A stretch of 64,000 bases of DNA from Streptomyces odontomachi. Lineage in GTDB: Bacteria; Actinomycetota; Actinomycetes; Streptomycetales; Streptomycetaceae. Shown here piece after piece: positions 22,492-30,542 of this stretch. Below the pieces are notes generated by a model, which was not told the DNA's origin, did not search any database, and saw only the letters and a program-made list of their open reading frames with translations. Numbering within the stretch: the stretch's first letter is position 1; every line of letters starts with the position of its first letter. A program made the position numbers and the translations under genes. The DNA lies in assembly GCF_024435355.1 (NCBI RefSeq), contig NZ_JAMJWG010000002.1, positions 248,001-312,000 of the forward strand, written 5' to 3'.

Positions 22492-23442
22492 ATGCGATCC
22501 GATAATCATATGAATACGCGCCGATGGCTCTTGCTGAGCGCGCTCGGAATCGGAGCGGCCGCGGCGACCGGCTCGGCCGTCGTGCTCACCAGGACCACGG
22601 ACCACGCCAGTTCATCCGCTCACCGGCCGGCGCCGGGCCCTTCGGGAACGTCCGGTCACAAGAAGGCCGGCAAGGGCACGCCCAGCCCGTCCAAAGGACC
22701 CCACCGGCCCTCCGGAGGCTCCCGCCGCAAGTCGAGCGGGCCCCGTCCGGGCTCCGTGCCCGTCGAAGCGGGTCTGCGCCAGACCTACCGGCTGCGGCCG
22801 GTCGCCGGCGAGTACGCGATCGGGAGTACGGTCCTGCATCCGCAGATCCGCAAGCACGCCCAGCTGACCCTGCCGGGATCCGGTCGCTACATCGCCCTGA
22901 CCTTCGACGACGGTCCCCACCCGGACTACACCCCGAAGGTGCTGTCCGTGCTGCGCACGTACCGCATCCAGGCCACGTTCTTCGTCATCGGCGAGAACGC
23001 CGCCGCCTTCCCCAAGCTGCTGCACGACATCGCGGCGGGCGGGCACGTGGTGGCCAACCACAGCTACACGCACCCGCTGTTGACCAGCCTCTCCACGGCC
23101 AAGGTCAGGCAGGAACTGGGCAGGACGAGCGACGTCATCGAGAAGGTGCTGGACGCGCCGCCGCGCTGGTGCCGTGCGCCGTACGGGGAGTGGGACGCGC
23201 GCTCCCTGAAGGTCTGCGCCCAGCTCGGCATGGAGCCCCTCGGCTGGTCGCTGGACACCAACGACTGGGCCCGGCCCGGCATCGCCAAGATCGAGAAGGC
23301 GGTCACCCACGGCGTCGAACCGGGCAGCGTCATCCTCCAGCACGACGGTGGCGGCAACCGGGCCCAGACGGTGCGCGCCATCACCGACTATCTGCCCCGA
23401 CTGCTGGACAAGGGCTACGTGTTCGTGCGTCCGCACACCTGA
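22492..23442 (+). CDS. Polysaccharide deacetylase (CE4 family), secreted or anchored
   Basis: A 316-residue carbohydrate esterase family 4 protein. An N-terminal hydrophobic stretch RWLLLSALGIGAAAATGSAV after two Arg acts as signal or anchor, followed by a Ser/Pro/Lys-rich linker (~35-95). The NodB domain (~135-316) has all five motifs: TFDDGPHPDYTP (catalytic base Asp and metal Asp), H-S-Y-T-H-P (metal His pair), R-A-P-Y-G-E-W, W-S-L-D-T-N-D-W, and I-L-Q-H-D with the catalytic His. It removes acetyl groups from peptidoglycan or chitin-like polymers outside the cell. GAGGAGAA directly before the ATG fixes the start. Followed after 5 nt by a small hairpin. Confidence 0.93.
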   Translation: MRSDNHMNTRRWLLLSALGIGAAAATGSAVVLTRTTDHASSSAHRPAPGPSGTSGHKKAGKGTPSPSKGPHRPSGGSRRKSSGPRPGSVPVEAGLRQTYRLRPVAGEYAIGSTVLHPQIRKHAQLTLPGSGRYIALTFDDGPHPDYTPKVLSVLRTYRIQATFFVIGENAAAFPKLLHDIAAGGHVVANHSYTHPLLTSLSTAKVRQELGRTSDVIEKVLDAPPRWCRAPYGEWDARSLKVCAQLGMEPLGWSLDTNDWARPGIAKIEKAVTHGVEPGSVILQHDGGGNRAQTVRAITDYLPRLLDKGYVFVRPHT

Positions 23443-23447
23443 GCCGG

Positions 23448-23465
23448 CACGCGCGGCGGCGCGTG
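23448..23465 (+). terminator. Small hairpin after deacetylase gene
   Basis: CACGCGC pairs with GCGCGTG around a 4-nt loop, five bases after the stop. Weak T content downstream. Confidence 0.45.
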
Positions 23466-23491
23466 GAGCTGTCCATGATGCGGTCAGCCCT

Positions 23492-23521
23492 TTGACCACG
23501 CCCCGCCGCCACGGCTACCTT
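23492..23521 (+). promoter_or_regulatory. Promoter for the first cysteine leader peptide
   Basis: TTGACC at 23492-23497 and TACCTT at 23516-23521 are separated by 18 nt. A start site about 7-8 nt past the -10 falls on or next to the leader ATG at 23529, so the message would be leaderless. Confidence 0.6.
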
Positions 23522-23528
23522 GCGGCAC

Positions 23529-23609
23529 ATGCAGCGATCGGCACATCTCACGGTTCGGGGGCACGTCGACCTGAAGCGTGTGTGCTCCGCCGCGTGTCGG
23601 CAGCCCTGA
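23529..23609 (+). CDS. Short cysteine-containing leader peptide (HVDL type)
   Basis: A 26-residue reading frame, MQRSAHLTVRG then HVDLKRVCSAACRQP, ending TGA. The segment H-V-D-L-x-R-x-x-S-A-x-C-R matches the short actinobacterial leader peptides that stand in front of cysteine, sulfonate and other sulfur genes. Two Cys codons (TGC, TGT) near the end would stall ribosomes when Cys-tRNA is scarce. No Shine-Dalgarno is present, and the promoter spacing suggests a leaderless start, as is common for such peptides. The next gene, a ROK regulator, begins 276 nt downstream, and the sulfonate-type operon follows that. Confidence 0.75.
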   Translation: MQRSAHLTVRGHVDLKRVCSAACRQP

Positions 23610-23885
23610 GCGTACGGCGGCACCTTTCGCCCCGTACGGCTGTTCCGCACGCACCACGACCCTGAGGACCGGGACGGGCGCGGCCGGCGGCTTCCTCCCG
23701 CTGCCGGCGCCCCCCATCAGTCCACGGCGTCGGTCACGAGCATCCGGTGCGTCCCGGCCGTGGCGACCTCGCCCGGCCCCGCCGCGAGCCCGGTCCGCAC
23801 CGGGCCCGCCGGTACGTCGCCGGGCCCTGCCCCCTGGCCGGGCCCTCCGGCGCAGCCATGCGCTGCCGCATCCCGGAAGGCATCC

Positions 23886-25199
23886 GTGAACGGATCACCG
23901 GCGCACCCGCGCCGCCGCACCGCACCGCGTCACCCCGACGCACCGCCCACCGCGCCACCCCGCCGTCCGCCGGCCACCCGGGCGGTGCTCGGCGCCATCC
24001 TCGACCACGGTCCCGTCGCCCGCAGCGCCGTTGCCCGGCTCACCGGCCTGTCGCCGGCCTCGGTCACCGGGCACTGCGGGCACCTGCTGGCGCGCGGGCT
24101 GATCCGGGAGGCCGCGGCGACCAGCGGGCCACGTGGCCTCGGACGGCCGCACATACCCCTGGAGATAGACACCGAACGCCATGTGGTGGCCGGTGCGCAC
24201 ATCGCCGTGCGACACACCACGTTGTCCCTGATGGACCTGCGTGGCCGGATCGTGGCGGAGGACCGTGAACCCCACCGCGGCACCGCCCCCGACCAGGTGC
24301 TGGACCGGCTCGCTGCACGGCTGCCCGCGCTGGTGTCCGGGCACGCCGCGGACCGTACGGTGCTGGCGCTCGGCGTGGCCACCGGACACCGGGTGGATCC
24401 ACGCACCGGCGTGATCGTGGACCATCCGCAGCTCGGCTGGCGAAACGTGCCGGCACGGGACGTGCTGGCCACCGCGACCGGGCTGCCGGTGCACGTGGAC
24501 GGGCACGCCCGGGCACTGGCCCGCGCCGAACAGCTCATCGGCGAGTCGTCGAGTCGCACCAGCGCCGTGCTGCTGTTCGTCGGCACGGTCGTGGACGCCG
24601 CCTTCGCCACCGGTGGCCTGGTCCATCTGGGACCGCATTCGGGTGCAGGCAGCGTCGCCCATCTTCCGGTCGGCGGGCGGGATCCGGCGCCCGGCGCGGA
24701 GCGGAACGAGGGCCCGACCCCCGCGGAGGGCTCACCGGAGCGATGCGCGTGCGGTGCCCCCGACTGCCTCCAGGCACAGGTGTCGGAACCCGCCCTGGTG
24801 CGGCGGGCCGCACGGCGCGGACTGTCCGTGCCCGACTTCCCGGCACTGCTCGAACGGGCCCTGCGGGGTGATCCCGTGGCGTGTGCGGTCTTCGTGGACC
24901 GGGCCCGACGGGTCGGCCGGGCCGCCGCTTTGCTGCTCGACATGTTCGATCCCGATGTGCTGGTGGTGGTCGAACCGGCGTCCGGACGGCTGCCGGAGTG
25001 CCTTGCCGCGCTGCGGGCGGAGGTGAAGCGGCGGTCCTGGGCGGGCGAGGCCGCGGCCACGGCGGTCGTGCCGAGCAGCTTCACCGGCTCCGTGTTGGCG
25101 GTGGCGGGCGCCGCGGTGGCGCTGGGGGCGCTGTATGCGGACCCCCTTGGCGCCGGGGCCGCGCCCCCGTCCCGGTTCACCACCGCGGATTCGACTTAA
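23886..25199 (+). CDS. ROK family transcriptional regulator
   Basis: A 437-residue ROK-family protein with an N-terminal winged-helix domain (~25-100; PVARSAVARLTGLSPASVTG as the HTH, then LIREAAATSGPRGLGRPHIP as wing) and a C-terminal ROK/actin-like fold. The ROK zinc site is clear: C-A-C-G-A-P-D-C, giving the C-x-C-G-x3-C pattern. The sugar-kinase catalytic motif is poorly kept (ATGHRVDPRTGVI region lacks the D-I-G phosphate loop), so it is a regulator, not a kinase. The GTG start follows GGAAGG by five bases. Its position between two cysteine leader peptides and upstream of the monooxygenase operon suggests it controls that operon; similar ROK genes accompany sulfonate-type clusters in other actinomycetes, but the effector is unknown. 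Confidence 0.88.
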   Translation: MNGSPAHPRRRTAPRHPDAPPTAPPRRPPATRAVLGAILDHGPVARSAVARLTGLSPASVTGHCGHLLARGLIREAAATSGPRGLGRPHIPLEIDTERHVVAGAHIAVRHTTLSLMDLRGRIVAEDREPHRGTAPDQVLDRLAARLPALVSGHAADRTVLALGVATGHRVDPRTGVIVDHPQLGWRNVPARDVLATATGLPVHVDGHARALARAEQLIGESSSRTSAVLLFVGTVVDAAFATGGLVHLGPHSGAGSVAHLPVGGRDPAPGAERNEGPTPAEGSPERCACGAPDCLQAQVSEPALVRRAARRGLSVPDFPALLERALRGDPVACAVFVDRARRVGRAAALLLDMFDPDVLVVVEPASGRLPECLAALRAEVKRRSWAGEAAATAVVPSSFTGSVLAVAGAAVALGALYADPLGAGAAPPSRFTTADST

Positions 25200-25216
25200 T
25201 TCAACGATGTGCTTTC

Positions 25217-25246
25217 TTGACCGGCTCCCGTTCCGCCGAGGAAAAT
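25217..25246 (+). promoter_or_regulatory. Candidate promoter of the poly-Cys leader and operon
   Basis: TTGACC at 25217-25222 and GAAAAT at 25241-25246, spacing 18. The predicted start falls at about 25253, the A of the leader ATG. The -35 equals that of the upstream leader promoter; the -10 is weak. Confidence 0.45.
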
Positions 25247-25252
25247 GGATTC

Positions 25253-25372
25253 ATGAGCGACCCGCAGCGTCTTTTCCCGTATGCGCCCCTTTCGGCGCCG
25301 CACGAGGGCGTGGCCGCGTCGATGCCCATTCCGTCGGGCCGCTGCTGTTGTCGCCGCATGCGCCGCACATGA
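25253..25372 (+). CDS. Poly-cysteine leader peptide upstream of the sulfur operon
   Basis: A 39-residue frame opening MSDPQRLFPYAPL and ending P-S-G-R-C-C-C-R-R-M-R-R-T-stop. Three consecutive Cys codons (TGC TGT TGT) followed by Arg codons lie six codons before the stop. Poly-cysteine upstream frames that act as cysteine-responsive attenuators are known in mycobacteria; position here, ahead of a sulfur-scavenging operon, fits that role. GAGGAAAA seven bases before the ATG could be a Shine-Dalgarno, but the promoter above would give a leaderless message instead. A shorter 16-residue version could begin at ATG 25322. The first structural gene follows 384 nt later. Confidence 0.65.
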   Translation: MSDPQRLFPYAPLSAPHEGVAASMPIPSGRCCCRRMRRT

Positions 25373-25756
25373 CGCCAAGCCAGCGAAATTCTGACGTGTG
25401 ATCTGACATCGAGGCGGCCTTCTCCGTTCAGCCGGTCCGTCCGCACCGTGCCACACGTGCACTTTCGCACGCTCACATTCCGCGGCTCGCTCGCACATGC
25501 TTCGCTTCTCGCCTGCGCCCGCGCGTCTCCCATCCGACCTTGCATGCCTGCCCTTCATGGGCCCGCCACGGCGCGCCCATCCGTCATTCCGCATGCGCGG
25601 GTCCGAGCGTCACGGGGCAACGCTGCCGCGCTGCCGCGCCGTTCCCTTTTCCTCTTCGGCCCCCGATTCCCCTCCCTTTTCCGTCCTCCCTTTTCCGCCG
25701 GCCCTTTCCGCCTTCCCTTACCCGTCTTTGTGCCTATCTCCATCCCGGGAGACTCC
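25373..25756 (+). other. Long 5' leader of the sulfur operon
   Basis: A 384-nt untranslated stretch between the poly-Cys peptide and the flavin reductase. Only small hairpins are seen (for example CGTGC/GCACG near 25455-25475). Its distal third is the pyrimidine tract listed separately. Confidence 0.5.
25641..25745 (+). promoter_or_regulatory. Pyrimidine-rich, G-poor tract in the operon leader
   Basis: In these 105 bases I count 12 G and 4 A; all others are C or T, in runs such as TTCCCTTTTCCTC and CCTCCCTTTTCCG. A C-rich, G-poor, unstructured RNA of this length is what Rho utilisation sites look like. It ends right at the Shine-Dalgarno of the flavin reductase gene, so Rho or an RNA-binding protein here would decide read-through into the operon. 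Confidence 0.55.
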
Positions 25757-26302
25757 ATGGCTCTTGCCCCCGCTCCGCGTTCCTCGCCGAACATCGCTCC
25801 TGACCGGTTCAGGCAGGTCTTCCGACGCCATCCCGCGGGGGTGGTGGTGATCACGCTGGACGCCGGGCAGGGTCCGGTCGGATTCACCGCCACCTCGCTC
25901 ACGTCGCTCTCGCTGAACCCGCCGCTGGTGTCGTTCGCCATCGCGGCCGGCGCGTCGTCCTGGCCGCATGTGGCGCGGGCGGCGAGCGTGGTCGTGCACT
26001 TCCTCGGTGCCGAACAGGAGCCGCTGGCCCGGCGGTTCGCCAGCCGTGGCGTCGATCGGTTCGCGGCGCCGACCGCATGGCGGCGGCTGCCCACCGGTGA
26101 ACCGGTACTCCACCACGTCGCCGGCTGGTTGCGCCTGGGTGTCGAGCAGATCGTCCCGGCCGGCGACCACCACATCGTCATCGCCCGTGCCCTGGAGGCC
26201 CGGCTCGACGCCGGCCGTGACCCGCTCCTCTTCCACGACGGCGTGTATCACTCGCTTTCACCCCGAACGGATATCGGCAATGCCCAGCCTCACATCGCCT
26301 GA
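25757..26302 (+). CDS. Flavin reductase (FMN reductase domain protein)
   Basis: A 181-residue flavin reductase of the HpaC/DszD-like fold. Visible: DRFRQVFRRHPAGVVVITL at the start, then VGFTATSLTSLSLNPPLVSF, the conserved flavin-contact segment T-A-x-S-x-x-S-x-S-x-x-P-P-L, and ADGH-like VPAGDHHIVIARALEA near residue 135. It makes reduced FMN with NAD(P)H for the two-component monooxygenase encoded last in the operon. The ATG follows GGGAGA closely. The frame is open far upstream, but similarity begins here. It overlaps the next gene by 23 nt. Confidence 0.88.
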   Translation: MALAPAPRSSPNIAPDRFRQVFRRHPAGVVVITLDAGQGPVGFTATSLTSLSLNPPLVSFAIAAGASSWPHVARAASVVVHFLGAEQEPLARRFASRGVDRFAAPTAWRRLPTGEPVLHHVAGWLRLGVEQIVPAGDHHIVIARALEARLDAGRDPLLFHDGVYHSLSPRTDIGNAQPHIA

Positions 26303-27350
26303 ACCGACCCACCGCAGAAAGTTCCTCGCCCTGGCCGCCGGCACGGCACTCGGGCTCGGCCTCACCGGCTGCGTCTCACGCACCGAAGCCGCCTCACAGC
26401 CGGCACCGACCGGCGCCCTGCCGACCGCAGCAGCACGCGGCACCAGGCTCTCCATAGCCGTCCACACCTCGCAATTGCAGCTCGCCGCATCGGGGCTCGG
26501 CAGAAAACTCGGATTCACGGTCTCCCAGTGGCCCAATCTGACGGCCGGACCCGACGTCATCCAGGGATTCAGAGCGCACTCCATCGATCTGGCGGCCAAT
26601 GCCGGAATTCCCCCCATCCAGGCCGCCGCAATCGGAGTGCGGGCCAGGATCGTCGCGGTGCAGGAACGGCACGTCCCGCTCTACCGGTTTGCCACCGCAC
26701 CCAGCTCGTCCATCGCCGACGCCGCCGATTTCCGCGGCCGGAAAATCGCGTTCTCGCAGGGCCAGGCGCAGGGCGTGGTGGTCCTGCGCGCCCTGAAGGA
26801 GGCCGGGATCAAGAACGACGACGTCACACTCGTCGCGCTGCCCAGCACGCAGTTCCTGACGGCTTTGCAATCCGGGCAGGTGGACGTGGCACCGCTCAAC
26901 GAACCGGTGCTGACCAAGTACCTGAACCAGTACGCCAAGGACGGGGCCCGGTCCGTGCCCACCGACGTGGTGGACCTGCTGACCGTCCTGTGGGCCCCGG
27001 TCGAGGTGCTGGACGACCCGGCCAAGCTGGCGGCGGTGCGCGACTACGTGCCGCTGTGGGCCCAGGGCCTGGTGTGGGCGTGGCAGCACACGGACGCCTG
27101 GATCGACACCTACTACGTCAAGGACCAGGGCGTGACCAGGGTGGACGGCAAGCGCATCGTCGCCTCGCTGGGCCCGCCCCGCTTCCCGGACAGCTGGGAC
27201 AGGGCCATCGCGTGGGAGCAGGAGACCGCGGATCTGCTGGCGGACGGCGGCTTCGTCAAGAAGCTCGACGTCACCGAGCTGTTCGACCGCCGTTTCGAGG
27301 ACCTCGCGGCGCAGGCCGTGCCGGGCCGGTACCGGGAGGCGGCCTCATGA
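26280..27350 (+). CDS. ABC transporter substrate-binding lipoprotein (SsuA-like)
   Basis: A 356-residue periplasmic-binding-type lipoprotein. The export signal is RRKFLALAAGTALGLGLTGC with the lipobox L-T-G-C; the double Arg suggests possible Tat export. The mature part matches the nitrate/sulfonate/taurine binding family: VSQWPNLTAGPDVIQGF, IDLAANAGIPPIQAA, FRGRKIAFSQGQAQGVVVLR and SGQVDVAPLNEPVL. It would capture an organosulfur or aliphatic sulfonate compound outside the membrane. Start ATG 26280 lies inside the end of the reductase gene; stop overlaps the permease start by ATGA. Confidence 0.87.
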   Translation: MPSLTSPEPTHRRKFLALAAGTALGLGLTGCVSRTEAASQPAPTGALPTAAARGTRLSIAVHTSQLQLAASGLGRKLGFTVSQWPNLTAGPDVIQGFRAHSIDLAANAGIPPIQAAAIGVRARIVAVQERHVPLYRFATAPSSSIADAADFRGRKIAFSQGQAQGVVVLRALKEAGIKNDDVTLVALPSTQFLTALQSGQVDVAPLNEPVLTKYLNQYAKDGARSVPTDVVDLLTVLWAPVEVLDDPAKLAAVRDYVPLWAQGLVWAWQHTDAWIDTYYVKDQGVTRVDGKRIVASLGPPRFPDSWDRAIAWEQETADLLADGGFVKKLDVTELFDRRFEDLAAQAVPGRYREAAS

Positions 27351-28255
27351 GCGGCACGCTCTCGCACGTACGCCCTCCCGAGACGCCCCCCGCCGAGGCG
27401 CCGGTGCCGGGCCGGTCCACGCGTCCCGATCCGGACGGGGCAGCGCCGTCCCGTGCCGTCCGCTCCCCCGGACGGAACCGTCGCAGGCTCGGTCCCGGGC
27501 GCCCGGTGCGCTTCGGGCGGCTGCTCGGGCCCGTCCTGCTGGTCACCCTCTGGTGGACGGCGTCGGCGCTCGGAGTGCTCGACCCGCGGGTGCTGTCCGG
27601 GCCGGGGGAAGTCGTGTCCACCGCGGGCGAGCTGGTCGCGGACGGCCGGCTCGCCGACCATGCGCTGATCTCGCTGCAACGGGCCGGGCTCGGGCTGCTC
27701 TTCGGGGTCGTTGCCGGCGTGCTGCTGGCCGTGGTCGCCGGTCTGAGCCGGCTCGGCGAGTACCTCGTCGACGGTCCGTTGCAGATCAAGCGGGCCATCC
27801 CGGCGCTCGCGATGCTGCCGCTGCTGATCCTGTGGTTGGGCATCGGTGAGCAGATGAAGGTCACCGTCATCGCGCTCGGCGTCGCGGTCAACCTGTACAT
27901 CAACACGTACGCGGCGCTGACCGGCATTGACCAGCGCCACGTCGAGCTGGCCGAGTCGCTGCGGCTCGGCAGGTGGGAGTTCCTGCACAAGGTCGTCGTA
28001 CCGGGTTCGTTGCCGGGGTTCTTCGTCGGGCTGCGGCTCGCGGTTACCTCGTCGTGGCTCGGGCTGATCGTGGTCGAGCAGATCAACGCCACGTCGGGCA
28101 TCGGCTACATGATGTTCCAGGCCCAGCAGTACGCCCAGACCGATGTGATCGTCGTCGGTCTCGTGGTCTACGGGGTCTTCGGCTTCCTCTCCGATGCCCT
28201 GGTCCGCGTCGTCGAGAGGAGGGCCCTGTCATGGCGGCGCACGCTGACGAGCTGA
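27347..28255 (+). CDS. ABC transporter permease (SsuC-like)
   Basis: A 302-residue inner-membrane permease. After a Pro/Arg-rich cytoplasmic N-terminus of ~55 residues there are about six hydrophobic helices (LLGPVLLVTLWWTASALGVL as the first). The EAA loop that contacts the ATPase is ELAESLRLGRWEFLHKVVVP, with the conserved G at R-L-G. Sequence type is the nitrate/sulfonate/taurine BPD family. The coding region overlaps the binding protein by ATGA upstream and the ATPase by 25 nt downstream, so the three transporter genes are tightly coupled. Confidence 0.92.
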   Translation: MSGTLSHVRPPETPPAEAPVPGRSTRPDPDGAAPSRAVRSPGRNRRRLGPGRPVRFGRLLGPVLLVTLWWTASALGVLDPRVLSGPGEVVSTAGELVADGRLADHALISLQRAGLGLLFGVVAGVLLAVVAGLSRLGEYLVDGPLQIKRAIPALAMLPLLILWLGIGEQMKVTVIALGVAVNLYINTYAALTGIDQRHVELAESLRLGRWEFLHKVVVPGSLPGFFVGLRLAVTSSWLGLIVVEQINATSGIGYMMFQAQQYAQTDVIVVGLVVYGVFGFLSDALVRVVERRALSWRRTLTS

Positions 28256-29103
28256 ACCGGGACGGGACGGCAGCCGGCTCCGACGCCCCCGTCGCGCTCC
28301 GCGCCGCCCGACTGGTGCGCCGGTTCGGCGGCCGGCTGGTGCTGGACGGCCTCGACCTGACCGTGGCCGCGGGCGAGTTCGTCGCGCTGCTCGGCCGCAG
28401 TGGCTCCGGCAAGTCGACCCTGTTGCGGGCCGTCGCCGGGCTCGACGACCGGGTCGACGGCTCGGGTGAGCTGCTGGTGCCGGAGCGGGTCTCGCTGTCG
28501 TTCCAGGACTCCCGGCTCCTGCCGTGGCTACGGCTGCTGGACAACGTGGTCCTCGGTCTGCGCGACCGCGCGGGCGCCGCCCGGGCCCACCCGAAGCGGG
28601 GGGACGCCCGCCGGCGCGGCAGTGCGGCGCTGGCCGAGGTCGGCCTCGCGGGCCGGGAGCGCGCCTGGCCCGGTGAGCTGTCCGGGGGCGAGCAGCAGCG
28701 TGCCGCACTCGCCCGGGCGCTGGTGCGCGAGCCGGAACTGCTGCTGGCCGACGAGCCGTTCGGCGCGCTCGACGCGCTCACCCGGATCCGGACGCACGGC
28801 CTGCTGCGTGAGCTGTACGAGCGGCACCGTCCCGCCGTGCTGCTGGTCACCCACGACGTGGACGAGGCGATCGAACTCGCCGACCGCGTGGTGGTGCTCC
28901 AGGACGGCCGCATCGGCCTCGACCTGCCCATCGAGCTGCCGGCGCCGCGCAGCCCGGGCGAACCGCGCTTCCAGGAGCACCGCGCGACGCTGCTCGCCGC
29001 CCTCGGCGTGACGGCCGCTCCCGACAGGCCCCCGGCACCGGCTGCCCACGCCGGCGCCGTGCCACCCCACTTGGAGGAAACCCCGCATGTCCCGCACGAC
29101 TGA
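28231..29103 (+). CDS. ABC transporter ATP-binding protein (SsuB-like)
   Basis: A 290-residue ATPase. Walker A is GRSGSGKST near residue 57, Q-loop in LSFQDSRLLPW, signature LSGGEQQRAALARAL, Walker B ELLLADEPFGALDALT, and H-loop TVLLVTHDVDEAIELA-like (VLLVTHDVDEA). The F-Q-D-S-R-L-L-P-W motif is typical of SsuB/TauB importers. It energises uptake with the permease and lipoprotein. The ATG follows GAGAGGAGGG at 28214-28223. A Pro/Ala-rich C-terminal tail of about 35 residues is likely disordered. It overlaps the monooxygenase gene by 17 nt. Confidence 0.94.
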   Translation: MAAHADELNRDGTAAGSDAPVALRAARLVRRFGGRLVLDGLDLTVAAGEFVALLGRSGSGKSTLLRAVAGLDDRVDGSGELLVPERVSLSFQDSRLLPWLRLLDNVVLGLRDRAGAARAHPKRGDARRRGSAALAEVGLAGRERAWPGELSGGEQQRAALARALVREPELLLADEPFGALDALTRIRTHGLLRELYERHRPAVLLVTHDVDEAIELADRVVVLQDGRIGLDLPIELPAPRSPGEPRFQEHRATLLAALGVTAAPDRPPAPAAHAGAVPPHLEETPHVPHD

Positions 29104-30472
29104 TCGTCCGCCGCTGCACCTCAACGCGTTCCTGATGTCCGTCGGGCACCACGAGGCGGCCTGGCGGCTGCCCGGGAGCAGTGCGCAGCCGACACCCGAC
29201 ATCGAGCACTACCTCCACCTGGCGCGCGTTGCGGAGCGCGGCAAGCTGGACTCGCTGTTCCTCGCGGACAGTCCCGTGTTGCAGGGCGACCCTGGGCGGC
29301 GGCCCGCCAGCAGGCTGGAGCCGACGCTGCTGCTGACCGCGCTGGCCGGTGCGACCCGGCACATCGGGCTGATCGCCACCGCCTCCACCAGTTACAACGA
29401 GCCGTACAACCTGGCACGCCGGTTCGCCTCGCTGGACCATGTCTCCGGGGGCCGGGCGGGCTGGAACATCGTCACCACCGCGGGCGCGGACGCGGCACGC
29501 AACTTCGGCCTGGACGACAGCCCGCCGCACCACGACCGCTACCGGCGGGCCGCCGAGTTCGTCGAGGTCTCCACCAAGCTGTGGGACAGCTGGGCCGACG
29601 ACGCCGTGGTGGCCGACAAGGAACGCGGGGTGCACGCACGGCCGGACCGGGTCCGCCGGATCGGCCACGCGGGGGAGTTCTTCCGCGTCGACGGGCCGCT
29701 CAACGTGCAGCGCTCGCCCCAGGGCTATCCGCTGCTGGTGCAGGCCGGGTCGAGCGAGGACGGCAAGGACTTCGCGGCGCGCTACGCGGAGGCCGTGTTC
29801 ACCGCGCAGCAGACCCTCCAGGAGGGCATCGCGTTCTACAAGGACGTCAAGCACCGTGCCGAGCTCCTCGGCCGCGACCCCGACGGGATCAGGATCCTGC
29901 CCGGCATCGTGCCGGTGATCGGGGACACCGAGGCGCAGGCGCGGGAGCTGGACGCCGAGCTCGACCGGTTGATCGTGCCCGAGTACGCCAAGCAGCAGCT
30001 GGCCAGGACGCTCCGGCTCGACCCGGCTGAGCTGGCCCTCGACGAGGAGCTGCCCGAAGGACTGCCCACCGAGGACGAGATCGAGGGCGCGAAGAGCCGC
30101 TACACCCTGGTCGTGGAACTGGCCAGGCGCGAGCGGCTGACGGTGCGGCAGCTGATCGGCCGGCTCGGCGGCGGACGCGGCCATCGCACCTTCGCGGGCA
30201 CCGCGGTCCAGGTCGCCGACACGATCGAGCACTGGTACGACAGGGGCGCGGCGGACGGTTTCAACATCATGCCGGCGGTGCTGCCGTCCGGGCTGGAGCG
30301 GTTCGTGGACGACGTCGTGCCGATCCTCCAGGAGCGTGGCCTGTTCCGCACCGCGTACACGGGCCGCACCCTCCGCGACCACTACGACCTGCCGCGCCCT
30401 GCCAACCGGATCTTCGAGACGGTGGAGCGGCGGCCGGGACGCATCGGCATCGGCCTTGCCGAGGCCGGGTGA
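29087..30472 (+). CDS. FMN-dependent monooxygenase, NtaA/SnaA/DszA family
   Basis: A 461-residue luciferase-like TIM-barrel monooxygenase of the NtaA/DszA/SnaA branch. Family marks: LHLNAFLMSVGHHEAAWR at the start, DSLFLADSPVL, TSYNEPYNLARRFASLDHVS, G-R-A-G-W-N-I-V-T-T, the F-R-V-D-G-P-L-N-V-x-R-S-P-Q-G-x-P-L-L-x-Q-A-G-S-S strand series, and A-D-G-F-N-I-M-P. It uses FMNH2 from the reductase made by the first gene to cleave a C-S or C-N bond, most likely desulfurising the imported compound. Length is normal. GGAGGAAA lies 8 nt before the ATG. Last gene of the operon; a strong hairpin follows. Confidence 0.93.
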   Translation: MSRTTDRPPLHLNAFLMSVGHHEAAWRLPGSSAQPTPDIEHYLHLARVAERGKLDSLFLADSPVLQGDPGRRPASRLEPTLLLTALAGATRHIGLIATASTSYNEPYNLARRFASLDHVSGGRAGWNIVTTAGADAARNFGLDDSPPHHDRYRRAAEFVEVSTKLWDSWADDAVVADKERGVHARPDRVRRIGHAGEFFRVDGPLNVQRSPQGYPLLVQAGSSEDGKDFAARYAEAVFTAQQTLQEGIAFYKDVKHRAELLGRDPDGIRILPGIVPVIGDTEAQARELDAELDRLIVPEYAKQQLARTLRLDPAELALDEELPEGLPTEDEIEGAKSRYTLVVELARRERLTVRQLIGRLGGGRGHRTFAGTAVQVADTIEHWYDRGAADGFNIMPAVLPSGLERFVDDVVPILQERGLFRTAYTGRTLRDHYDLPRPANRIFETVERRPGRIGIGLAEAG

Positions 30473-30513
30473 GTCCCGAGGGCGGGTGACCGCCGGCGGG
30501 GTCGGTGATGCGG

Positions 30514-30542
30514 CGCGGCGGCCCGTGTCACCGGCCGCCGCG
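30514..30542. terminator. Bidirectional terminator after the sulfur operon
   Basis: A perfect 10-bp stem (CGCGGCGGCC/GGCCGCCGCG) with a 9-nt loop. It lies 41 nt after the monooxygenase stop and overlaps the last codons of the convergent methyltransferase gene, whose stop is inside the loop. Confidence 0.7.

Follow-up and report, generated by a model that had tools for sequence, protein, structure and literature searches.

Cysteine-codon leaders predicted to control a ROK-family regulator and its likely single target, a putative sulfur-scavenging operon, in Streptomyces and other genera

The analyzed 64,000-nucleotide stretch of the Streptomyces odontomachi genome (10.57 Mb), hereafter the window, contains on its plus strand a compact locus with, in this order, a short open reading frame (ORF) termed leader 1, the gene of a ROK-family regulator, a second short ORF termed leader 2, a C-rich stretch, and an operon encoding a flavin reductase, an ATP-binding cassette (ABC) importer, and a monooxygenase (Table 1). 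This locus probably represents a conserved unit, in which a cysteine leader precedes the ROK gene, a cysteine-rich leader precedes the adjoining operon, the ROK protein is predicted to bind at the promoter of this operon as its likely only target, and ribosome stalling on the leaders at low cysteine would raise first the expression of the regulator and next that of the operon. The coordinates and the order of parts proposed in a first-pass annotation, which was made from the sequence alone, were borne out, as both leaders, the ROK gene, the C-rich stretch, and the operon are all present in the sequence. The position 23492, with which that annotation starts, is the first base of the TTGACC box, 37 nt upstream of leader 1.

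The same annotation had noted that a gene order confined to this strain would argue against its proposed circuit; in fact, the order is not unique to S. odontomachi. Of 101 genomes searched within the genus, its own included, 42 contain a total of 48 ROK relatives (E value of at most 1e-50). By identity, these relatives can be divided into group A (10 proteins including the one in the window, at least 67%), group B (20 proteins, 50-55%), and group C (18 proteins, 42-48%). We examined the loci of nine other group A proteins, 15 of the 20 group B proteins, and 16 of the 18 group C proteins. Both leaders are present at all 25 examined loci of groups A and B (10 of 10 in group A, window included, and 15 of 15 in group B). 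Group A keeps the ROK, flavin reductase, importer, and monooxygenase genes, with one locus (L060) devoid of the importer. Group B keeps the ROK, importer, and monooxygenase genes without the flavin reductase; at one locus (L072) the contig ends within the importer. The scavenging operon was not found at the 16 group C loci, some of which have only weak ATPase matches, and the leader-1 motif is absent from all 16 of these loci as well as from 14 other ROK genes of the S. odontomachi genome (14 of its 18 other ROK matches were examined).

A second collection of named genomes, formed by the best 80 of 308 ROK relatives, includes loci from Streptomyces, Actinacidiphila, Streptantibioticus, Peterkaempfera, Frankia, Amycolatopsis, Saccharothrix, Kutzneria, Nucisporomicrobium, Catenulispora, and Rhodococcus. 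Leader 1 is present at 64 of these 80 loci, leader 2 at 63 (64 if L139 is counted, at which displacement of the ROK stop codon masked the ORF), and both leaders at 59. Two loci counted in the denominator of 80 (L112 and L151) start at or within the ROK gene, so that leader 1 cannot be judged there. Five loci duplicate genomes of the first set (L093, L102, L104, L127, and L172); they were kept in the counts of leader presence, including the 80 named loci, and of the operator octamer at group C genes and over ROK stop codons, and excluded from the hairpin, base composition, codon, folding, consensus, and 78-locus tests. Deviating arrangements include Rhodococcus yunnanensis (L169), which has leader 2 with a GTG start and in which no leader 1 was found, and two Saccharothrix loci with leader 1 followed by a different gene, which we take to be TauD-like. 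On a ROK tree of 46 hand-chosen rows, the label "both leaders" needs five changes versus a mean of 14.9 after shuffling; the loci with both leaders are clustered on this tree and do not form one clade.

Leader 2 is defined by its start position and its cysteine tail. The promoter-2 pattern was found once in the sequence, versus a mean of 0.0 (standard deviation 0.2) in shuffled sequences. For a comparative estimate, we used 78 group A and B loci picked by leader 1 alone, with no anchor on the operator or on the leader-2 start. An ATG lies 35-37 nt from the first TTGAC 3' of the ROK gene at 76 of these 78 loci, and at 71 of 78 loci an unanchored scan found at this distance an ATG-started short ORF with at least two cysteines among the last 16 residues. 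Another common position for an ATG is 28 nt from TTGAC (48 loci), within the -10 region. If transcription begins at the start codon, a spacing of 35-37 nt is what one would expect, and hence a leaderless mRNA is predicted for leader 2. The same prediction follows for leader 1, whose ATG is situated 7 nt after the TACCTT element and 37 nt from the start of TTGACC. Thus, as far as promoter spacing can tell, both leader mRNAs would be leaderless.

The tails of leader 2 contain on average 2.8 cysteines, compared with 0.52 in shuffled leaders, and at least two tail cysteines are present in 86 of the 88 leader-2 ORFs accepted by their start position. The body of the peptide drifts, with 56 synonymous versus 274 non-synonymous changes among 26 copies of 40 residues; conserved are the start position and the cysteine tail, such as SCCRPCPG in group A and SCRTLCC in group B. 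At L070, leader 2 consists of no more than MTCRTLCC. Leader 2 of the window has no match in NCBIfam or Pfam, and three of its relatives have none in NCBIfam. At two loci (L133 and L134), the ATG 36 nt from TTGAC opens a cysteine-less ORF fused in frame to the flavin reductase gene, which supports the leader-2 ATG as a real start.

Two peculiarities of leader 2 were observed in group B. At L145, L159, L160, L164, L165, L166, and L167 it contains [KR]CR-x-[IV]DLMR, a motif similar to the leader-1 core VDL-x-R and suggestive of a shared origin of the two leaders; NCBIfam matched neither of the two such leaders scanned. At L067, leader 2 ends with a tandem duplication of the CTGTTGCTGACACGT segment.

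The choice of cysteine codons is distinct in the leaders. UGU accounts for 196 of 281 cysteine codons in leader 2 and 81 of 135 in leader 1, versus 84 of 590 in the ROK genes (100 loci). At 82 of 83 loci, UGU makes up a larger share of the cysteine codons in leader 2 than in the ROK gene of the same locus; since the loci are related by descent, this per-locus count is safer than the Fisher value, which is no probability. Other leader codons of the NNY type are T-ended in only 21-23% of cases, that is, C is kept at the third position. The first-pass annotation had interpreted both leaders as cysteine-sensing switches. For leader 2 this role is well supported by the cysteine-rich tail, the UGU codons, and the fixed distance of the start from the promoter; for leader 1 the support is weaker, as discussed below.

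In group A, leader 1 has a MQRSAHLTTRGHVDLKRVCSAACHRA-like form, and in group B the form MVAQ...SRR-H/Y-VDLRR...C. All 49 group A copies with a length of 26 residues contain Cys19 and Cys23 as well as RGH-x-DL, and RR-x-VDL-RR is invariant across 18 group B copies of 28 residues. Two cysteines are found in 51 of 52 group A copies and three in the remaining one. In the 49 group A copies, the entropy at codon positions 1, 2, and 3 is 0.19, 0.21, and 0.57 bits, and the nearest-neighbor codon changes comprise 97 synonymous versus 39 non-synonymous ones; these substitutions indicate selection on the peptide sequence of leader 1 in group A. The window copy scores under the curated cut-offs of NF042936 (33.8 bits, cut-off 45) and NF042934 (20.6 bits, cut-off 27). 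Five relatives scored against NF042934 include two that pass (29.7 and 27.3 bits, one from group B and one from Frankia) and three below (22.1, 24.1, and 24.2 bits). The promoter-1 consensus of group A, derived from 52 loci, contains TTTGACCGG and TACGTT. In the same consensus, a conserved GTCCAnnATGCGG-like stretch is located just 5' of the -35 box of promoter 1 (23470-23490 in the window) and may serve a further regulator of this gene as its site.

The S. odontomachi genome has six matches to NF042934 or NF042936 other than leader 1 (150 candidates scored per search). Four of them are upstream of sulfur genes, encoding (i) a sulfite/nitrite reductase, (ii) an O-acetylhomoserine/O-acetylserine (OAH/OAS) sulfhydrylase, (iii) a MoaD-like protein and cysteine synthase, and (iv) a mercaptopyruvate sulfurtransferase-like protein. 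The NCBIfam cut-offs are exceeded by the sulfhydrylase and the cysteine synthase but not by the sulfurtransferase and the reductase, the latter truncated where the locus ends. Of the other two matches, one is upstream of a gene for a weakly rhodanese-like protein, and downstream of the other no gene was found; the loci with a downstream gene are L020, L022, L173, L174, and L175. The presence of the leader family upstream of several sulfur genes suggests a genome-wide cysteine leader regulon.

The regulator itself contains a ROK domain (PF00480, 96 bits) and a DNA-binding helix-turn-helix (PF12802, 27.8 bits, cut-off 27), the combination that characterizes the CysR/SsuR type, and its best relatives among solved structures are Mlc/NagC-like ROK regulators. 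His259, Cys287, Cys289, and Cys294, which belong to the ROK zinc site, are invariant in two alignments of 20 and 16 relatives. The glutamate of ExGH, the sugar-binding motif, is replaced by Ser or Asn in 20 of 20 and by Ser, Ala, or Thr in 16 of 16 aligned relatives. This replacement fits a loss of sugar binding and a non-sugar effector.

A candidate operator for this protein is found in front of promoter 2. The TTAATTCA box is present near the ROK stop codon at all 78 leader-1-bearing group A and B loci and in none of 1560 Markov resamples. The CysR/SsuR half-site ATTnn[AT]TTCA is matched at 7-8 of 8 positions at 75 of 78 loci in an unanchored 215-nt region (resamples 13%; window 7 of 8). A similar count, 79 of 83 loci versus 9.8% in resamples, is partly circular, as these loci were preselected by an AATTC box before TTGAC. 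The consensus of the operator region is cgAnTTAATTCAGaaagTtGcAtTGTTGAC. In each of the 11 genomes searched (the own one and 10 chosen of the 42), the exact pattern TTAATTCA-N8-14-TTGAC has a single copy, always beside the ROK gene. A single exact operator per genome suggests that the ROK protein has one target, and from these genome sequences a dedicated regulator with one target promoter seems likely. In group C, the operator octamer is near the gene at one of 16 ROK loci, and the helix-turn-helix, recognized in 10 of 16 proteins, reads SGLSPAAVSRQ or similar, not TGLSPASVT. The prediction that the ROK protein acts within 25150-25760 is supported by the operator-like site at 25196-25216, a putative binding site whose core is found at all 78 loci. 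By analogy with CysR and SsuR, the protein would bind this site and activate transcription there. The octamer overlaps the ROK stop codon at 26 of 88 loci and also in the window (25196-25203).

These features can be combined in the following scenario. At low cysteine, ribosomes would stall on the cysteine codons of leader 1, and the level of the ROK protein would rise; stalling on the cysteine codons of leader 2 would open the operon, which the ROK protein would activate at promoter 2. Stalling at cysteine codons would then be the signal shared by both branches, and the result would be a coherent feed-forward loop. At ample cysteine, the ribosome would complete leader 2, and the C-rich stretch would be exposed to Rho, whereas a ribosome stalled on leader 2 would block or delay Rho loading. 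Rho is favored as the read-out because a C-rich, G-poor stretch is present: the 100-nt segment at 25646 has the highest C-minus-G value of the whole 64 kb on either strand (5-nt steps). It is our best guess and the least certain part of the model; a Rho read-out was proposed in 2005 for mycobacterial cys leaders (PMC1262725). In its most specific form, which we put forward tentatively as a possibility, the locus would be a two-tier gauge, in which the leaders gate a one-target ROK activator and its target by reading the same charged tRNA, with leader 2 as a new minimal class of leaders read by Rho.

Several observations weigh against this scenario, and we consider them together with the alternatives on which they bear. 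With respect to the regulator, the operator half-site is missing from the promoter of the ROK gene itself (matches at seven or more positions at 0 of 78 leader-1 promoters), the second operator half is weak and, in our reading, about 6 bp nearer to the -35 box than in CysR sites, and the count of one target per genome covers the exact operator pattern only. An alternative that we consider possible, if rather less than probable, is that no feed-forward loop exists: the ROK protein would be a repressor or a sensor of sulfate or substrate, the leaders would be separate fine-tuners, and the operon would be an AND gate for external and internal signals. The lack of the operator at the regulator's own promoter speaks for it, and so do the statement in PMC2580772 that the ROK family holds transcriptional repressors of sugar operons and the reported response of SsuR to sulfate. 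It is opposed by the position of the operator, which is 5' of and against the -35 box, much like the CysR activator sites, and not over the -10 element.

Other points concern the read-out. The C excess, extreme in the window, is modest elsewhere (77 loci), with median C-to-G ratios (C/G) of 1.59 after leader 2, 1.40 after leader 1, and 1.00 in the ROK genes, and it is common to both leaders. The region 23400-25800 contains no terminator-like hairpins, and Rfam gave no match in the window. RNAalifold revealed no conserved hairpin at 18 group B loci, with covariation terms of +12.5 and +19.6, which we read as unfavorable. Compared with shuffled sequences, the leader-2 stretch of the window shows no better folding (z 0.66) and the leader-1 stretch somewhat better folding (z -2.22). 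The predicted openness of the downstream start site is the same with a stalled and with a terminating ribosome, 0.452 versus 0.451 for leader 2 (72 loci) and 0.389 versus 0.395 for leader 1 (66 loci). Classical trp-type terminator attenuation was discarded, given no terminator-like site and no Rfam family; start-site masking relieved by stalling gained no support, given equal openness at 72 and 66 loci. A related scenario retains the sensor and assumes that the stalled ribosome attenuates translation of the next gene, with Rho uninvolved. The lack of a terminator is in line with it, and cysteine leader ORFs of Mycobacterium smegmatis are described as controlling downstream translation in PMC13236596 and PMC9031893. 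It nevertheless appears less likely, given the equal openness of the start sites, the spacers between leader 2 and the next gene that vary from 36 to about 400 nt among the loci listed, and the lack of conserved pairing at the 18 group B loci.

As for leader 1, group B copies contain one cysteine in 24 of 26 cases and two in the other two, which is why its role as a cysteine sensor is the weaker part of the earlier claim. Moreover, 18 group B copies show equal numbers of synonymous and non-synonymous changes (36 to 36; entropy 0.39, 0.20, and 0.37 bits). It is therefore conceivable, if doubtful, that leader 1 does not read cysteine, and that its conserved R-x-H/Y-V-D-L-x-R core either is an arrest peptide or simply provides a translated 5' end that aids ROK expression. 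In favor of this view, RR-x-VDL-RR is invariant in the 18 group B copies of 28 residues, and RGH-x-DL is found in all 49 group A copies. However, both cysteines are also retained in every one of the 49 group A copies, the cysteine codons of leader 1 favor UGU, and the same core is found upstream of other sulfur genes of this genome.

The remaining points concern the occurrence of the leaders. Neither leader is present at 12 of the 80 named loci despite a related ROK protein (eight in Amycolatopsis, one in Kutzneria, one in Nucisporomicrobium, and two in Catenulispora); gene order differs or has no match at all of these except Nucisporomicrobium. At L133 and L134, leader 2 is without the cysteine tail and the stop codon, which shows that the leader can be lost. 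The leader-2 start at 35-37 nt at 88 of 105 loci is a result of construction, as only those offsets were accepted. Still, an origin of the leaders as chance ORFs, which are frequent in high-GC upstream DNA and would agree with the hardly conserved body of leader 2, is rejected as extremely improbable in view of the unanchored counts (76 and 71 of 78 loci), the codon bias, and the recurrence across genera.

The operon downstream of leader 2 would serve to free sulfur from an organosulfur compound. The nearest relatives of its monooxygenase among solved structures are YtnJ, MoxC, a nitrilotriacetate monooxygenase, and DszA. The features of the locus are listed in Table 1.

Table 1. Features of the ROK regulator locus in the S. 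odontomachi window; promoters, operator, and Rho-loading region are predictions.
Feature	Position	Strand	Details
Promoter 1, putative	23492-23521	+	TTGACC 23492-23497, 18 nt, TACCTT 23516-23521
Leader 1 ORF	23529-23609	+	26 aa, MQRSAHLTVRGHVDLKRVCSAACRQP, two Cys codons close to the stop
ROK-family regulator gene	23886-25199	+	GTG start assumed, 437 aa, winged helix and ROK domain
Predicted ROK operator	25193-25216	+	TTAATTCA at 25196-25203, weaker inverted half TGCTT adjoining the -35 box
Promoter 2, predicted	25217-25246	+	TTGACC, 18 nt, GAAAAT
Leader 2 ORF	25253-25372	+	39 aa, MSDPQRLFPYAPLSAPHEGVAASMPIPSGRCCCRRMRRT, terminates GRCCCRRMRRT
C-rich, G-poor stretch, candidate Rho-loading region	25373-25756	+	C/G 1.9; core 25640-25745, C/G 4.33
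Flavin reductase	25757-26302	+	PF01613, 117.1 bits
SsuA-like substrate-binding protein	26280-27350	+	TIGR01728, 88.8 bits (below cut-off 163.5); PF09084, 42.6 bits
SsuC-like permease	27347-28255	+	NF008470, 191.5 bits (below cut-off 347); PF00528
SsuB-like ATPase	28231-29103	+	NF008420, 234.2 bits (below cut-off 395); PF00005
NtaA/DmoA-family flavin mononucleotide (FMN)-dependent monooxygenase	29087-30472	+	TIGR03860, 560.4 bits (above cut-off 279.7)

If true, the proposed circuit unites two known devices, cysteine leader ORFs and ROK regulators of sulfur genes, in a scheme kept across genera. The locus would then offer a regulator that acts locally, probably on a single promoter in each genome, together with a defined operator and two leaders whose roles could be examined by exchanging a few codons, and the likely single target would make the effector of this apparently non-sugar-binding ROK protein directly testable. 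A 2024 review calls the knowledge of streptomycete sulfur metabolism fragmentary (PMC11356490).

Participation of a ROK protein in sulfur control, which the first-pass annotation had expected to be a novelty, is not new, since CysR and SsuR of Corynebacterium glutamicum are described as ROK-type sulfur regulators in PMC2580772. The regulator considered here, likened to them by family and operator, shares with them the association with sulfur genes and an operator half of the form ATTnn[AT]TTCA 5' of the -35 box. It differs in that the site is nearer to the -35 box, combines a strong half with a weak one, and is found as a single exact copy in each genome searched, and in that a leader ORF precedes the regulator gene. 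Another ROK protein adjoining organosulfur genes is IGTS8_peg5940 of Rhodococcus qingshengii, which is 18- to 33-fold up in dibenzothiophene (sulfate-starved) culture; there, the gene order is divergent, and the accessible part of PMC8557817 mentions no leader.

In mycobacteria, cysteine leader ORFs have been described before (PMC4633059, PMC9031893, and PMC13236596). The mycobacterial polycysteine leaders (Ms4527A and Ms5788A; NF042936, NF042933, and the general NF042934) are likewise short, have their cysteine codons close to the stop, start at or near the mRNA 5' end, as is predicted here, and are located upstream of sulfur genes. In contrast to them, one leader of the present locus precedes a regulator, and a second, unmatched one precedes the likely only target of this regulator. 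The candidate cys leader peptides of Mycobacterium, Propionibacterium acnes, and Bifidobacterium longum (PMC1262725) also have cysteine codons, no terminator hairpins, and Rho as the proposed factor; they precede cys and cbs genes with no ROK regulator, and the accessible part of that paper reports no Streptomyces cysteine leader. In the literature searched, outside of which most subscription journals lie, we found no description of cysteine leaders upstream of a ROK gene. What looks new in the S. odontomachi locus, where leader 2 fits none of the families searched, is the stacking of two known elements, a ROK sulfur regulator and cysteine leaders, on one regulator and its likely single target.

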